A program made the translations under genes and the position numbers. This document shows, in pieces, positions 57,534 to 64,000 of a stretch of DNA of 64,000 nt. The stretch's first letter is position 1, and every line of letters begins with the position of its first letter. The stretch is from the NCBI RefSeq assembly GCF_000226295.1, contig NC_016024.1:2339501-2403500 (forward strand), in the 5' to 3' direction. The notes under the pieces were generated by a model. The model ran no database searches. It worked only from the letters and a program-made list of their open reading frames with translations, and was not told the origin of the DNA. Source of the stretch: Chloracidobacterium thermophilum B (GTDB lineage: Bacteria > Acidobacteriota > Blastocatellia > Chloracidobacteriales > Chloracidobacteriaceae).

Positions 57534-58121
57534 ATGAGCTTACGTGCATCAGGTGAAACGGTACGTCGGGGGCTGCGTTTCTTTTCATTCAAGCCCTTGT
57601 TCACCTTTATCCTCGTCCTGCTGTCCATGGCCGGCAATCTGGCTGCCCGCGCCCAGCAGGGCCGCCCGACCCCGACCTCGCCCCAGACACCACAGCCGGA
57701 CGAAGCATCACAGACCTCATCACCTTCAACCCCATCCGCTGAGTTGACCCTCGACCTGCCCGCCACACCACCACTGCTCGGTTCTTTTTTCCTGCGCAAC
57801 GCTGAACCTTCCCCGCAGGCCGTTCCGTTTGTCGCCACGGCCTACAGCCTGAAAGGACGCACGGCGTCGGGGGAATACGTCCGGCCCGGCATTGTCGCGG
57901 CTGACCCCCGCGTGTTGCCGCTCGGCTCGGTCGTCAAGGTTCACGCCGGGCAGTATTCCGGTGTCTATCACGTCAAAGATACCGGCGGCCGCATTCGGGG
58001 ACGCCACATTGACATCTACATACCCTCCACCCGCGATGCCATCCGCTTTGGGCGGCGCACTGTCCGGGTGGAAGTCATCCGTACTGGACGGCCACAGCGC
58101 ACCAGACTGGGAACGCGGTAG
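57534..58121 (+). CDS. Exported 3D-domain protein (MltA/RlpA-type double-psi beta barrel)
   Basis: A 195-residue secreted protein. ATG 57534 with GGGAGGA about 8 nt upstream. An N-terminal membrane-export segment at about 20-40 (FTFILVLLSMAGNLAARA) ends near AQQ, then a Pro/Ser/Thr linker. The C-terminal 3D domain (about 95-190) shows its three Asp: VATAYSLKGRTASG, VAADPRVLPLGSVVKV and VKDTGGRIRGRHIDIY. This fold is found in lytic transglycosylases and spore cortex enzymes that cut peptidoglycan. It precedes a NamZ-like gene, another glycan-directed enzyme, on the same strand behind a terminator. Confidence 0.87.
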   Translation: MSLRASGETVRRGLRFFSFKPLFTFILVLLSMAGNLAARAQQGRPTPTSPQTPQPDEASQTSSPSTPSAELTLDLPATPPLLGSFFLRNAEPSPQAVPFVATAYSLKGRTASGEYVRPGIVAADPRVLPLGSVVKVHAGQYSGVYHVKDTGGRIRGRHIDIYIPSTRDAIRFGRRTVRVEVIRTGRPQRTRLGTR

Positions 58122-58250: not shown

Positions 58251-59417
58251 ATGCAGACCGGACTTGACCGCCTGTTCACCCACCACCTCGACCTGCTCCG
58301 CGACCGCCGCGTAGGACTCATCTGCAGCCCGGCTTCGGTGGATGTCATCTACCGCCACGCGGCTGACCTGTTTGCCGCCTGCCCGGATGTTCATCTGACG
58401 GCGCTGTTCGGCCCGCAGCATGGGTTTCGGGGCGAGACGCAAGACAACATGATCGAATGGGAAGGCTGGCCGCGTGATCCACGGCTGGGCGTCCCGGTGT
58501 TCAGCCTCTACGGGCAGACGCGCCAGCCAACCCCGGAGATGCTGGCCGAGGTGGACATTCTCGTGTTCGACGTGCCGGATGTCGGCACGCGCGTCTATAC
58601 CTTCATCTGGACGATGGCGCTGGCGATGCAGGCGGCCCAGGCGCAGGGCATTCCGTTTGTCGTGCTGGACCGCCCCAACCCGATTGGCGGTCTCGACATC
58701 GAGGGGGCCGTTCTCGAACGTGAATGGGCATCCTTCGTCGGGATGTACCCCATCCCGATGCGGCACGCGATGACGGTCGGCGAACTGGCGCGCATGTTCA
58801 ATGCCACCGAGGGTATTGGCTGCGAACTGTATGTCGTTCCCATGGAAGGCTGGTCACGGCCGCAGTGGTTTGACACCACCTGGCTGCCGTGGGTGATGCC
58901 TTCCCCGAACATGCCGACGCTCGATACCGCCACCGTCTATCCCGGCATGGTGCTGCTCGAAGGCACGACGCTTTCCGAAGGACGCGGCACGACGCGCCCG
59001 TTTGAAATCTTCGGCGCACCGTTCATTGACCCCTATGAACTGGCAGCCGCGCTCGAACCGCTCCAGTTGCCGGGAGTCCACTTCCGGCCGCTCTGGTTTC
59101 AGCCAACGTTCAACAAGTTTGCCGGACAGGTGTGCGGCGGGCTTCAGCTTCACGTACAGAACCGCAACACATTTCGCTCGTACCGCACGGCCGTCGAAAT
59201 TCTCAAGGCTGTCCGACGCCTGTATCCACAGGAACGCCTGTGGCGTGAGCCGCCTTACGAATACGTCTTTGACCGGCTTCCCTTCGATGTCATTGCCGGA
59301 CAGGCGCGGCTGCGGGCTGCCATTGAAGCCGATGCCGACTGGGCTGATATTGCCGCAGCAGACGAACCGGCCCTGGAAGACTTCCGCCGCCGCCGCACCG
59401 CCTATCTGCTCTATTAG
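58251..59417 (+). CDS. NamZ-like exo-beta-N-acetylmuramidase (DUF1343)
   Basis: A 388-residue protein of the DUF1343 family. The characterised member, NamZ of Bacillus, removes terminal MurNAc from peptidoglycan fragments. Conserved blocks: VGLICSPASVDVIYRHAADL, LTALFGPQHGFRGETQDN, PVFSLYGQTRQPTPEML, DVPDVGTRVYTFIWTM, LDRPNPIGG and LEGTTLSEGRGTTRPFEIFG. It lacks a clear signal peptide, so it would act inside the cell on imported fragments, unless exported differently. No strong ribosome site was seen before ATG 58251. It ends 18 bp before the end of the convergent membrane protein gene. Confidence 0.88.
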   Translation: MQTGLDRLFTHHLDLLRDRRVGLICSPASVDVIYRHAADLFAACPDVHLTALFGPQHGFRGETQDNMIEWEGWPRDPRLGVPVFSLYGQTRQPTPEMLAEVDILVFDVPDVGTRVYTFIWTMALAMQAAQAQGIPFVVLDRPNPIGGLDIEGAVLEREWASFVGMYPIPMRHAMTVGELARMFNATEGIGCELYVVPMEGWSRPQWFDTTWLPWVMPSPNMPTLDTATVYPGMVLLEGTTLSEGRGTTRPFEIFGAPFIDPYELAAALEPLQLPGVHFRPLWFQPTFNKFAGQVCGGLQLHVQNRNTFRSYRTAVEILKAVRRLYPQERLWREPPYEYVFDRLPFDVIAGQARLRAAIEADADWADIAAADEPALEDFRRRRTAYLLY

Positions 59418-59435: not shown

Positions 59436-60473
59436 TTACTCGATACGCAGGCGTCCCCGCGCGGCAATCTGCCCACGGGCATCGAGCCGCGCCGGCGTCA
59501 CCACCACGACATAGCCGCTGCCGGGCCGGTCGCAGTCATAGACAAAGCTGTAGTTCTGCTGAAAGTCGCTGCCGTAGATGACTTCCTGCGCCGGAAAGAC
59601 GAACCGTTCACCCCGCTCTTCGAGTTCCAGGAACAGTCCGCTTGGATTGAGGGAAAAATGCCGGGTGAGGGCGTCCACGTGGCCGGCCCGCAGGCGGTCC
59701 CGGTAGCGCGCAATGATGTCCGAAACCCGCTGGTTTTCAAATGGATCGGGCGGGGGCAGCGTATCAGCGGCGCTGGCTTGTGGCTCGGCGGGCAGGGTTT
59801 GCGCCACAGCCATCCCGGATGACAACGCCGGCAACGGATGAGGTGGCGTCTCCGGCGAGACCAACAGCGTCGAAAGTTTGTTTTTCAGGTAGTCCACTTC
59901 GTCACGCAGCGAACGCAGGTCGGACTGAAGGGCTGTCAAATCTGCGCGCAGCGCCGTTTCGGGGGCAGGCCCGCCGGCCGCCTCCGGTCTGGAAGCGTTG
60001 TCTGGCTTGGGCGGCGCGGGTTGGCTTTCAAGCCGCTGGAGACGTGCCTGCAACGCGCTGATTTCACCTTCGAGTTGCTGCCGCTGGGTACGCAGAAGCC
60101 ACCAGAACACAACGGCCACAACCACGAGTCCAACCAGCGCCACCACAAGGGTCAGCAGTGCCACCGGCCACACATCAGGAGCGGCCGCCACGGACGGGTC
60201 ATCAAGCTTCCACCCGGCAGCTTTCACCGGCCAGACTTCCGGCGGCGCCCCTAGCTGCCCGGCGAAGGATGCCAACAGCCCGGCCAGGATCGCCAACCGG
60301 CAGACGGCTGGAAAGACACAGCAGCGTTTCCGAACCCAGCCCCACACCGTTCGCCACTGGCAGGCCGGTGTCGGCTCCCCCCGGCGATGCTTTTGCCGGG
60401 TTTCCAACGCGCCGGCGCACCATCCCGTGCCTGGCAAACCTGCCGGCCGCTGCCTTACCAGCCGGTCACTCAT
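59436..60473 (-). CDS. Membrane coiled-coil protein of unknown family
   Basis: A 345-residue protein. ATG 60473 has GGGGGAG 7-10 nt upstream. Residues 1-50 are basic; a hydrophobic segment at about 52-74 and a strong transmembrane helix at 102-126 (LLTLVVALVGLVVVAVVFWW) frame a short loop. Two coiled-coil stretches follow (129-152 and 176-204), then a Pro-rich spacer and a C-terminal domain (about 245-345, beta-rich, GLFLELEERGERFVFPAQEV, ending in RLRIE). It follows the large ATPase gene by 25 bp, and is very likely co-transcribed. It may anchor the ATPase at the membrane. No named family is recognised. Confidence 0.72.
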   Translation of the reverse strand: MSDRLVRQRPAGLPGTGWCAGALETRQKHRRGEPTPACQWRTVWGWVRKRCCVFPAVCRLAILAGLLASFAGQLGAPPEVWPVKAAGWKLDDPSVAAAPDVWPVALLTLVVALVGLVVVAVVFWWLLRTQRQQLEGEISALQARLQRLESQPAPPKPDNASRPEAAGGPAPETALRADLTALQSDLRSLRDEVDYLKNKLSTLLVSPETPPHPLPALSSGMAVAQTLPAEPQASAADTLPPPDPFENQRVSDIIARYRDRLRAGHVDALTRHFSLNPSGLFLELEERGERFVFPAQEVIYGSDFQQNYSFVYDCDRPGSGYVVVVTPARLDARGQIAARGRLRIE

Positions 60474-60498
60474 AGGTCATCGCTCCCCCCGGCGCGGC

Positions 60499-63400
60499 TC
60501 AGGTTCTGTCCATCTGTGGCGGCTGGTCGTCATAAAAACCAGCCCGGCGGGCCATGTCCTCAATCAAGGGATAGGGCTGGTCGGGCAGGCTCGTGACCAG
60601 TTTCAGGTCTGGGTCGGCATAGAGCACGCCGGTCACAAAGACCGAAAGTGGCGTCATCGCCGGATAGTGTCGTCCACCGGACAGGTAGCCGTTGATGGTC
60701 GGCCAGCGTTTCTCCGGGATAAGGTCCGTGTTGCCCCGCGAAGTAAACAAGGTGAGCAGCACGTCCAGCGGAGCGTTGGCCCCCGGCAGGCGGATGTTGA
60801 CCTGGCGGATGTCAACGTCCGTCTCCATACCAAAACGGCGTTTGAGGTCAGCTTCACTCCAGCGGTCAAACCAGTTCACGGACTGCGGGCCATACTCCTG
60901 GGCGCCATCGCCAAGTACCACCTGCGCCAGATTCACCCCGGTAAACGGAGCCGTTCGCCGGCTGAGGTTCTGACTGGACGCCACCGCGAGCGCCCCAATC
61001 GGGACGTTGGTCTTGGCGCGACTGATGTCGCCTTCATTGAGCAGGGTCACATCGTGGATATGCAGGTCGTGCAGGCAGGCGGCAGCTTCCGGCAGCAGGC
61101 TGCCGCTGGCCCGTGTCTTGAGCCGATCCAGCAGCGTTTCGGCTTCTGCCAGCAATGCCTGCCCGGAACGCTCAAAGTCGGCAAAGAGCAGCAAACCCCA
61201 GGCATTCCCGCCCAGCACCACATGAATCCCGTGCGGCAACTGGTCTCGTCCCAGCCGGCGCTCGATGGCCGCACCGGCCGCCTGAAGAATGCCGTAGGCC
61301 AGAATGTGGCGGAAAAAGAGCTGGGCGCAAAACCGCTGGTAGGCATCGCGGTAGCTTTGGTTTTCGGGCAGGGTGGTATCGCGCTGGCGCTTCAGAATGA
61401 GGTGTTCCCGCTGCACGAAGGTTTCGCTTTTGAGTTCATTGACGCGCAGCAGATAAAAGGTGGGAAGGCTCAGATTGTGGTCACGCAGACCCGGCATGTC
61501 GCTGACATCCATTTCCATAGGCGCCGCTTCCTCATTCGGCGCCAGCAACAGCCCCAGATGACGGCGAAACACACTGGCCTTGCGCAGCCTGACGCGGGAG
61601 GACAGGTTTTGCTCGGCGGTGCGGAAAAACTGCCGTCCGGCCAACCGCAGGCTGTCCAGCACCAGGATTTCCGTCCCGCGCCGGACGGCCAGATCGGTTG
61701 TGCCGCCGCCCACGTCAATGAACAGATCGAGCCGGTCGGAACTGGGCGGCAGGTTGGCCCCGGCTGCAGCGGCAGCGCTTTCATCCACGTCAGCGCGGTA
61801 GTGGGAAGCCGCTTCAAAGTTGCGCACGCCGTGGCAAAGCCACTGGATCACCTGGATGTTCTCCCGGTTCTGCTTGTGGAACACATCCCGGTCGGTGCGG
61901 CTCATCGCCAGCGGAAAGGTGAAGGTGTAATCCGTCACCTGCGCCCGCCGGTTGAAAAACAGCTCGGCGTGGGCAAACAGCAGCAGCAGACGCAGAAACA
62001 GTGCACGGTAGGCAGAGGTCTGGGACTGTCCCCACTTGAGGTTGTCGTGCAGGTCCCAGGCATTCGCGCCACTGCCGGCCGCCAGCAGCATGCGGTTGAG
62101 ACCATCGGAGTAGAGGTTGGGAATGGCGGCGGCAAACAGGTGTTCGACCGTCAGCATCTCCGGCGCTACTTCCCGCAGCGATGCAGAGCGGCGCGTCAGC
62201 AGGGTCGTCGAGAAATAGCCTTTGGCTCCGCCCCAGTTGAACGGTGCAAACCCCAGCCGGTTGGCTCCGTCGCCATTCCACAGACGCAGCGGGGCGAGAG
62301 AAAACCGCAGGGTGTCGGTCACACCACCGGCCGCAAAAGCCGCTGACGTGTTGCTCGTGCCAAAATCCACGGCGAGGTGGGCCGAAGTCGGCGTCCTTGC
62401 CCCGGCGTCCGGCAGCCGGGCGAGCCAGACAACGCCCCGCTCCACATCGCGTCCCTGGGCCGGCCACCACCAGCTCAGGGCGCGCGGACGATTCGCCCGG
62501 ACCTGTCCGGTGGCATCCGCCGTTTCCTGCGGACGCAGCAGGGTGACGTATTCATCCTGCGACGCACCAAGCTCATACAGGTCGCCCAAGCGCCCGTTTT
62601 CATCCACCAACCGCCAGCGCCCGGAACGTTCCCGCAGACCCAGCCCGTGGGCCGCGTAAAAGTACCACTGCGGGTCCACCCTGGGCGGCCAGAGAGACAG
62701 AGAAGCCACGGCCAAATCCCGGGCCTCAAAGTAGCGCGCCGTCCAGGTGACTTCCCGCCCGCAGAGCTGAAACGTCCACACCACCTGCTGCCCATCAAAG
62801 GCGATGCGGGACTGCAGGCCCGTTCCGTCTTCCGCCAGCAACTCCGGGAAATACGCCAGGAACCGGCTCGTGACTGGCGCCATACACACAGAAATCCGTG
62901 AGGCATCGGTCAGTCCCTGAAGCTTGTGCACCGGATGAATGAGCGCCAGCCGCTGGTCTTCACGCGGATAATCCACCCGTCCGACGAAATCGCTCACAAA
63001 GAGACTCGCCAGGTCAACGATCTCATCCCTGGCGTCAAGCGCCAGCGTTTCGAGCCGACCGCGCACTTCGACCCCGATGGCATTCGGTCCCAGGGCGCGG
63101 TAGCTGACCGGCGAGGGCTGTCCGGGACCCAGGGCGGTTGTCATCCAGGCTGGCGGCTGAGGAAACTTGTCCACCAGGAAGTAGGTCTGCCCGCCGCGCT
63201 CATTCGGCTTGCGTAAGGGGTAGATGTCCAGCAGGTCTGTCGGTTTGGGCTGTTCGCGTACAAGCGGCCAGGCGGCCGGGCTGGAAGCCAGCCGTGGGGC
63301 CTGGTCAAGGCCGTAGGGTGCCGGCCCGAAGGCTTCGTCACACAGCCGTTCGAGAAGCCGGCCGAAGCTGAGCGGCAACACGTCCCGTGCCAGGCAGCGC

Positions 63401-63942
63401 AAATGCCGGTGGCACTTGTCGCGCTCAAAGGTATCGGTCAGCAGCACGGTCTGCGTACGTGCCCAGGACAGGTGTTCACCTTCGAGATACGGGCGCAGAT
63501 AGTTTTCCTGCGACCAGTGTGAACGGGCGCGCGCCGGAAAAAACACGACATCGGGATAAACTCCGCCCAGGGTTGTCGTCCCCACGCACAAAAGCTGAAA
63601 CTCCCGCAACCCACCGCCCTGCGGATAGGTTGTCTCCAGCGCCGGTTGCAGCGCCGGCGGATATTCCCGCGCCAGCAGCGCCGGTGTCAGCGGTTCGGTC
63701 AGATAGGCCACGCCCATGGCGTGCAGGACGAACAGCGTCAACCACTCCCGGCACGCCAGTTCGTCGCCCTGTTCGACGGCCTGACGAAAACGATAGGCCG
63801 CTGCCCAGACCGTGGGGAGCGTCTCAAAAAAGCGGGGATTGGGGGCCGGCGGCGTGACCCGATGGGGATCAATCGGGAAAAAGGTCTGCGCCCGAAACCC
63901 GCCGACTTCGCCGAGCATGCCCTGGTTGATGAGAAGCCCCAT
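60499..63942 (-). CDS. Giant Hsp70/actin-fold ATPase with a large unknown N-terminal half
   Basis: A 1147-residue protein. ATG 63942 has GGGAGG 5-6 nt upstream. Residues 1-520 match no family that I recognise and hold many aromatic and Arg residues. From 524 there is an actin/Hsp70/sugar-kinase ATPase core: phosphate-1 VDFGTSNTSAAFA (525-537), a connect-1-like stretch YTFTFPLAMSRTDRDVFH (672-689), phosphate-2 FIDVGGGTTDLAV (741-753), and adenosine motif HVVLGGNAWGLLLF (907-920). Spacings are near those of DnaK, so the core is complete. No J-domain or GrpE-like partner is visible in the window. It may be a chaperone or scaffold of an undescribed complex; the upstream gene lies beyond the edge. 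Confidence 0.8.
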   Translation of the reverse strand: MGLLINQGMLGEVGGFRAQTFFPIDPHRVTPPAPNPRFFETLPTVWAAAYRFRQAVEQGDELACREWLTLFVLHAMGVAYLTEPLTPALLAREYPPALQPALETTYPQGGGLREFQLLCVGTTTLGGVYPDVVFFPARARSHWSQENYLRPYLEGEHLSWARTQTVLLTDTFERDKCHRHLRCLARDVLPLSFGRLLERLCDEAFGPAPYGLDQAPRLASSPAAWPLVREQPKPTDLLDIYPLRKPNERGGQTYFLVDKFPQPPAWMTTALGPGQPSPVSYRALGPNAIGVEVRGRLETLALDARDEIVDLASLFVSDFVGRVDYPREDQRLALIHPVHKLQGLTDASRISVCMAPVTSRFLAYFPELLAEDGTGLQSRIAFDGQQVVWTFQLCGREVTWTARYFEARDLAVASLSLWPPRVDPQWYFYAAHGLGLRERSGRWRLVDENGRLGDLYELGASQDEYVTLLRPQETADATGQVRANRPRALSWWWPAQGRDVERGVVWLARLPDAGARTPTSAHLAVDFGTSNTSAAFAAGGVTDTLRFSLAPLRLWNGDGANRLGFAPFNWGGAKGYFSTTLLTRRSASLREVAPEMLTVEHLFAAAIPNLYSDGLNRMLLAAGSGANAWDLHDNLKWGQSQTSAYRALFLRLLLLFAHAELFFNRRAQVTDYTFTFPLAMSRTDRDVFHKQNRENIQVIQWLCHGVRNFEAASHYRADVDESAAAAAGANLPPSSDRLDLFIDVGGGTTDLAVRRGTEILVLDSLRLAGRQFFRTAEQNLSSRVRLRKASVFRRHLGLLLAPNEEAAPMEMDVSDMPGLRDHNLSLPTFYLLRVNELKSETFVQREHLILKRQRDTTLPENQSYRDAYQRFCAQLFFRHILAYGILQAAGAAIERRLGRDQLPHGIHVVLGGNAWGLLLFADFERSGQALLAEAETLLDRLKTRASGSLLPEAAACLHDLHIHDVTLLNEGDISRAKTNVPIGALAVASSQNLSRRTAPFTGVNLAQVVLGDGAQEYGPQSVNWFDRWSEADLKRRFGMETDVDIRQVNIRLPGANAPLDVLLTLFTSRGNTDLIPEKRWPTINGYLSGGRHYPAMTPLSVFVTGVLYADPDLKLVTSLPDQPYPLIEDMARRAGFYDDQPPQMDRT

Positions 63943-63966
63943 AATTCCTCCCTGCCCTGTCCGTCT

Positions 63967-64000
63967 TCACACCCGCCCGGACACCACTGCGTTCAGGCGG
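63967..64000 (-). CDS. Possible 3' end of an upstream gene (cut by window edge)
   Basis: On the minus strand one frame entering from the right edge reads RLNAVVSGRV and then a stop at 63967, 24 bp before the giant ATPase start. That spacing fits an operon neighbour, but ten codons cannot prove it and another frame is also open here. Confidence 0.3.
   Translation of the reverse strand, partial: RLNAVVSGRV

Follow-up and report, generated by a model that had tools for sequence, protein, structure and literature searches.

Studies of bacteria usually treat actin-like and tubulin-like proteins as systems apart from each other. Two described systems are closest to the locus reported here. The first is the FtsZl1 (Pfam Tubulin_2)-vWA system, for which Makarova and Koonin (2010; PMC2875224) predicted a role in membrane remodeling. 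The text of that paper places a divergent FtsZ/tubulin protein, a secreted vWA-type protein, and transmembrane (TM) proteins in one operon, sometimes with OmpA proteins, and the system exists besides the cell's own FtsZ. The same text names no actin-fold or Hsp70 partner, a statement that covers the text and not the supplementary families B1 to B9. The second is the ZorAB/MotAB class of stators, which in Zorya stands beside ZorC, ZorD, and ZorE. Here we analyze a locus at the end of a 64,000-nucleotide stretch of Chloracidobacterium thermophilum B (the window; G000:C1:2339501-2403500, in a genome of 3.7 Mb on two contigs). It encodes a giant protein, A, and four partners, B, T, S, and V. We suggest, with a probability of about 0.5, that A supplies the actin-type ATPase subunit to a cell-envelope machine made of several proteins, T, V, S, and B as a membrane tether among them. 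The libraries and literature searched (preprints and most subscription journals lay outside the search) hold no description of this system. Its genes are as follows; L032 is the locus that covers the region upstream of A past the window edge.

60499-63942, minus strand: A, predicted giant actin/Hsp70-fold ATPase of 1147 amino acids (aa), from its open reading frame (ORF), homologs, and purifying selection.
59436-60473, minus strand: B, membrane coiled-coil partner of 345 aa, an ORF 25 base pairs (bp) past A.
L032:6658-8367, same strand as A: T, predicted tubulin/FtsZ-fold protein of 569 aa.
L032:8414-8872, same strand as A: S, protein of 152 aa with 3 TM spans by hydropathy.
L032:8910-10361, same strand as A: V, lipoprotein of 483 aa with a lipobox and a DGSGSM motif.

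The gene order around A is steady. All 7 Chloracidobacterium genomes examined carry full-length A, as do 4 other genomes (58 relatives searched), and profile searches found A in 7/396 Acidobacteriota (strict cut-off), 9/395 Bacteroidota, and 1/150 Gemmatimonadota genomes. Named isolates that carry the operon include Rufibacter, Pontibacter, and Prevotella ruminicola. Of 44 loci, 43 carry T on the A strand, upstream of A, and 39 carry V upstream of T and A. Several of these loci are close relatives of each other, so they do not amount to 44 independent events. Among the five loci that depart from V-T-A, one is cut by a contig start (L049), two have other genes in place (L041 and L048), one has no T (L037), and one has no V match (L038). 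The L037 locus (L037:927-9857) holds a divergent 841-aa A homolog, V, an Hsp70 gene, and a gene for a PKD-domain protein of 1015 aa; no T was seen there.

A reverse search with the T profile alone is more telling than the 44-locus count. It found T in 14/392 Acidobacteriota genomes. In six genomes that the strict A search had missed (G306, G377, G378, G375, G305, and G083), A lies directly downstream of T, with V upstream. In G025, also missed by that search, A is downstream of T and V has no match. In one further locus T and A form a single 1689-aa ORF with no internal stop (L070:8885-13954). Pairwise distances of T and of A correlate at 0.97 over 24 loci, which is what co-inheritance predicts. 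V-(S)-T-A makes up the constant core, in which T is the most faithful neighbor of A. The preliminary description, made from the window alone, had paired A with a membrane partner. That adjacency holds, but the system is not one of two genes, and T lies beyond the window. Linkage and the fusion together suggest that T and A bind each other.

The preliminary description had also credited A with a complete nucleotide-binding core, with motifs at residues 525, 741, and 907. We found the same core, with the motifs at 526, 743, and 911. The parts of A, all on the minus strand, are as follows.

62389-63942: residues 1-518, N-terminal half with no recognized fold (no Pfam or PDB sequence match).
60988-62388: residues 519-985, predicted actin/Hsp70 nucleotide-binding core, from Foldseek, VIA-align (519-921), and sequence.
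62347-62367: residues 526-532, phosphate-1 motif DFGTSNT; D526 is invariant in 17 sequences from three phyla.
61765-61785: residues 720-726, connect-1-like motif DESAAAA; E721, S722, and A724 are invariant in the 17 sequences.
61693-61716: residues 743-750, phosphate-2 motif DVGGGTTD; D743, G745-747, and D750 are invariant in the 17 sequences.
61198-61212: residues 911-915, adenosine-type motif GGNAW; G912 is invariant in the 17 sequences.

The phosphate-1, connect-1, phosphate-2, and adenosine motifs of the actin/Hsp70/MreB ATPases are therefore all present in A, invariant or nearly so across the 17 sequences. Full-length homologs share 36-79% identity with A and keep the active-site motifs, and the key motif residues are unchanged across 7 aligned full-length homologs. 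A connect-2-like AKTNVPIGA stands at residue 976; this end of the core (976-985) was read from sequence alone. Pfam matched MreB_Mbl (PF06723) to 54 residues (719-772) with an E value of 8e-7, just above the looser cut-off, and FtsA below threshold. The MreB family model TIGR00904 scored 31 bits against a cut-off of 366, and by that cut-off A would fall outside MreB as a whole protein. Foldseek placed MreB first for the model of the core (8.7e-8), and in VIA-align all 50 of 50 rows were Hsp70 or MreB, with a best Z score of 8.5 over residues 519-921. From these models, the core is predicted to have the actin/Hsp70 fold.

In residues 519-921, A resembles MreB, DnaK, and FtsA in fold and in all the motifs. 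It is three times as long as MreB, carries a C-terminal extension and some 515 additional residues at the N terminus, and is probably attached to the membrane via a partner. The preliminary description had seen more than 500 residues without recognized homology before the core, and this stands: Pfam matched nothing in residues 1-515 of any of 8 homologs, and no PDB sequence matches this region. This half is conserved inside the Acidobacteriota and has a similar length in other phyla, and homology between its Acidobacteriota and Bacteroidota versions was not demonstrable (hhalign E value, 0.03). Pfam, NCBIfam, and PADLOC gave matches to the core fold alone, and no characterized family matches A over its full length, as had been proposed. 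SrfB (PF07520), a long protein that the preliminary description had listed among those with this fold, matched neither A nor anything in 56 related genomes, a weak negative because the control genomes were silent too.

The model of T has a predicted template modeling score (pTM) of 0.85. Its first Foldseek matches are tubulins (E value, 1e-4), and all of the 50 best VIA-align rows are FtsZ or tubulin, with the top FtsZ at a Z score of 15.9 and 3.1 Å over 195 residues. The model thus predicts a tubulin-family protein with the FtsZ/tubulin nucleotide-binding fold. Across T proteins, the guanosine triphosphate (GTP) loops read GGxGx(K/R) in most members and xGGTG(A/S)x. T of the window genome scored 19.6 bits against Tubulin_2 (PF13809), below the curated cut-off of 27, and a profile-profile comparison (92.9%, 3.7e-7) points to a distant relative. 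T proteins of this operon are mostly 467-593 aa, compared with 900-1482 aa for frames of the PF13809 set, a comparison of lengths alone.

A related genome carries a canonical FtsZl1 operon (L108:2382-13709) that encodes, in order, a zinc-ribbon-like protein, a vWA-like protein, a small protein, Tubulin_2, a small protein, and an Hsp70 protein. The last of these has 1064 aa and matches PF00012 at 8e-20. Because an Hsp70-domain protein lies downstream in this operon, the V-T-A and FtsZl1-vWA operons may be branches of one theme. The locus might then be a divergent branch of the predicted FtsZl1-vWA system with the same vesicle- or membrane-remodeling job, a reading that overlaps with the envelope machine that we propose and bears on ancestry and job, not on anatomy. 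We regard this as a serious possibility, somewhat short of even odds. The gene logic is alike, with a vWA-type protein, a small TM protein, a tubulin-like protein, and then an Hsp70/actin-fold protein. In both systems TM proteins and a secreted protein of the vWA type share an operon with a divergent FtsZ/tubulin protein, and to judge from the text of PMC2875224 both can include OmpA proteins, besides the cell's own FtsZ; the distant profile match of T to Tubulin_2 fits as well. A vWA protein together with a tubulin-like protein, the mark of an FtsZl1-vWA operon, was found in 39 of 44 loci, the vWA identity being motif-based. However, T stays below the Tubulin_2 cut-off. FtsZl1 proteins have an N-terminal FtsZ domain, a long coiled coil, and a helical C-terminal domain, whereas T is without a long C-terminal extension. 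The system here also has a constant actin-fold partner and, in some phyla, a MotAB-like pair, and no protein kinase or P-loop GTPase was recognized by inspection beside T. The remodeling function of FtsZl1 is itself a prediction.

The Hsp70 side of the fold raises a different reading, in which A acts on T or V as a chaperone of the Hsp70 type, to fold, assemble, or dismantle it, and in which T alone polymerizes, or none of the proteins does. DnaK heads the VIA-align rows for the core of A (Z scores, 8.5 and 8.3), the L108 operon has a true Hsp70-domain protein downstream of FtsZl1, and in L037 an Hsp70 gene lies beside V. However, the sequence matches favor MreB over Hsp70, Foldseek puts MreB first, and no substrate-binding domain was recognized C-terminal to the A core. 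The modeled fold does not separate the two families here, nor does it tell a filament partner from a chaperone of T. We consider a chaperone unlikely. The preliminary description had offered a membrane-attached assembly or chaperone machine; our preferred reading of A as part of an envelope assembly keeps the first half of that proposal, and the second half stays a rival.

The lipobox cysteine of V is invariant, and a DxSxS motif like that of a metal ion-dependent adhesion site occurs in most Acidobacteriota V members. B, on the same strand as A with a spacing of 25 bp, as the preliminary description had it from the window, has two features of note, both on the minus strand.

60108-60164: residues 104-122, TM span by hydropathy, conserved in all five congeners aligned.
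59439-59807: residues 223-345, C-terminal domain of about 123 aa, defined by a profile and recurring in other operon proteins.

A membrane coiled-coil protein adjoins A in most relatives, so the expectation that the partner would accompany A orthologs was borne out. The two spans ascribed to B are both present as hydrophobic segments (52-70 and 104-122), but the first is not conserved and is missing from three congeners with shorter versions. The C-terminal domain, which had been called unique, is not. In other Acidobacteriota loci of the A subfamily, the partner downstream of A ends in this domain. It also sits inside zinc-ribbon proteins that come next in several operons. An iterated profile of B drifted to these proteins, and a C-terminal-only profile, built with the zinc-ribbon proteins left out, traced the drift to the shared domain, matching zinc-ribbon proteins of the same operons at 8e-39, 4e-34, 3e-22, and 2e-21. 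Bacteroidota partners have a C-terminal domain that matches that of B weakly (hhalign, 81% and 1.4e-6). Pfam, NCBIfam, and PADLOC gave nothing useful for B. Because one domain is repeated across several proteins of one operon, it is most simply read as a putative docking module.

Part of the loci carry a further gene pair after the core: most Bacteroidota loci, the Gemmatimonadota locus, and Acidobacteriota genome G306. One member, M, has 3 TM spans and matches MotA_ExbB in 3 of 7 cases (6e-5). The other is MotB-like, and an Asp in its TM segment is invariant. In G025, a MotB-like gene lies next to one for a 752-aa protein with 3 TM spans. The best solved relative of the MotB-like protein is PDB 8vvn_B (E value, 2e-19), which PMC11890865 assigns to type I ZorAB. 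As in the ZorAB/MotAB stators, the Bacteroidota subunit keeps the channel Asp, and it matches type I ZorB near its full length. Against PADLOC, a Bacteroidota operon matched ZorB1 at 4.6e-10 and, weakly over a coiled-coil part, ZorA3. Because the PADLOC match of M covers a coiled-coil tail only, we did not accept M as ZorA, and its assignment rests on the 3 TM spans, the MotA_ExbB matches, and a sequence likeness seen by eye. No MotAB-like gene was found in the operon of the window genome. The G306 locus (L129) has the MotAB-type version, and other sampled members of its genus showed no T; this operon looks like a horizontal gain.

These motor-like genes bear on a defense reading, in which the motor and the lipoprotein sense phage and T and A respond, as ZorAB does for ZorCD or ZorE. 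Since the MotB-like subunit is closest to ZorB and the spread is rare and patchy (7/396, 9/395, and 1/150, with G306 the sole carrier among sampled members of its genus), defense is a live rival. Yet PADLOC matched none of A, B, T, and V from the window genome and reached a Bacteroidota V only marginally (0.009), and no effector such as a nuclease was recognized in the core. Every one of the 7 Chloracidobacterium genomes also has the operon, a pattern suggestive of long residence and not of fast turnover. On balance we find a defense role improbable, more so than a chaperone. For the window genome we rejected Zorya as a name for the system as a whole, because the operon there has no MotAB pair. 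Unlike Zorya, these operons have tubulin-fold and actin-fold proteins instead of ZorC, ZorD, and ZorE, none of which had a match among 9 operon proteins scanned (no genome-wide search was made).

We return to an actin-type subunit within an envelope machine, as which the steady V-(S)-T-A set and its tether may be read: a lipoprotein outside, TM proteins across the membrane, and two cytoskeletal-type nucleoside triphosphatases (NTPases) inside. V, on the periplasmic side, would sense or grip something in the envelope. S and B would relay the signal through the inner membrane to the cytoplasm, where T and A may assemble together, docked via the C-terminal domain common to B and further proteins of the operon. 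Assembly, disassembly, or force would be powered by the binding and hydrolysis of nucleotide. In the Bacteroidota, the Gemmatimonadota, and two Acidobacteriota loci, a MotAB/ZorAB-like channel pair may supply further energy, as an addition or a substitute. Computation supports the genes and how they are linked, the folds of T and of the A core, the V lipobox and motif, the membrane spans, the domain common to several operon proteins, the single T-A fusion, and the MotB-like subunit with its channel Asp. Beyond that, we infer a physical T-A complex, polymer formation, localization, and a function in force or remodeling.

Several observations weigh against this proposal. The model of A is weak (predicted local distance difference test score, 55.7; pTM, 0.42), and being poor overall it makes the structure match a support for the fold and not for its detail. 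Over residues 1-518 the model is too poor to give a fold, which leaves the N-terminal half of A unexplained. The GTP signature of T is reduced (YGGTGAC or FGGTGAA versus GGGTGSG, with the first and last Gly replaced), so T may have lost polymerization or hydrolysis, and its T7 loop was not identified. The vWA identity of V is motif-based, with a marginal Pfam vWA match in at most 2 of 14 members. In Chloracidobacterium loci L041 and L048, V and S are absent beside T and unrelated genes take their place. The T-A fusion comes from one metagenome genome that is 65% complete; with a single incomplete genome, the assembly could be at fault, though nothing points to that.

What stands is that one actin-like and one tubulin-like protein are kept adjacent in a fixed order in at least three phyla, fused in one genome, and accompanied by envelope proteins, at some loci also by a stator-like ion motor. 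If T and A act together, this would be an unusual case of direct cooperation between the actin and tubulin families in prokaryotes, and the 2010 FtsZl1-vWA prediction would gain a testable relative. A stronger form of the idea is a wholly new machine, in which tubulin-family and actin-family NTPases are obligate partners, merged into one polypeptide in one lineage. They would be coupled across the envelope to a lipoprotein of vWA-like kind and, in several phyla, also to an ion-driven rotary motor of the MotAB/ZorAB type. We hold this stronger form to be doubtful.

The preliminary description had expected a third gene past the window edge. It encodes a methyltransferase, and T, S, and V lie beyond it, farther upstream of A on the same strand.

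Window 63993-64000, minus strand (whole ORF, L032:5494-6657): 3' end of the methyltransferase gene, with a Pfam Methyltransf_25 match at 8e-12.

Its stop codon falls within the last bases of the window, and its start is outside. The gene separates T from A in the window genome, and G004 has an identical T-A gap of 1214 bp. It is known only from these two closest genomes; T sits next to A in the remaining congeners that were examined. The closest named relative found is a Chloracidobacterium metagenome genome with 79% identity in A.

Ratios of nonsynonymous to synonymous substitution rates (dN/dS) against congeners are 0.08-0.12 for A, 0.11 for T, 0.14 for V, and 0.25-0.29 for B. A and B are thus under purifying selection, and their frames are coding and not due to chance. 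Because the window genome also encodes its own FtsZ and has an MreB-like match elsewhere, the V-T-A system is extra. An ORF of 782 aa on the opposite strand (59998-62346, plus strand) overlaps A and part of B. Given the codon-position guanine-plus-cytosine (GC) content of A (0.69/0.47/0.75) and its dN/dS of about 0.1, we rejected this frame as a high-GC shadow and not a gene. Convergent with B lies a 388-aa ORF (58251-59417, plus strand) that by eye, with no library search, resembles a cell-wall protein of the DUF1343/NamZ type. It is preceded by a 195-aa ORF (57534-58121) that, judged in the same way, is RlpA-like.

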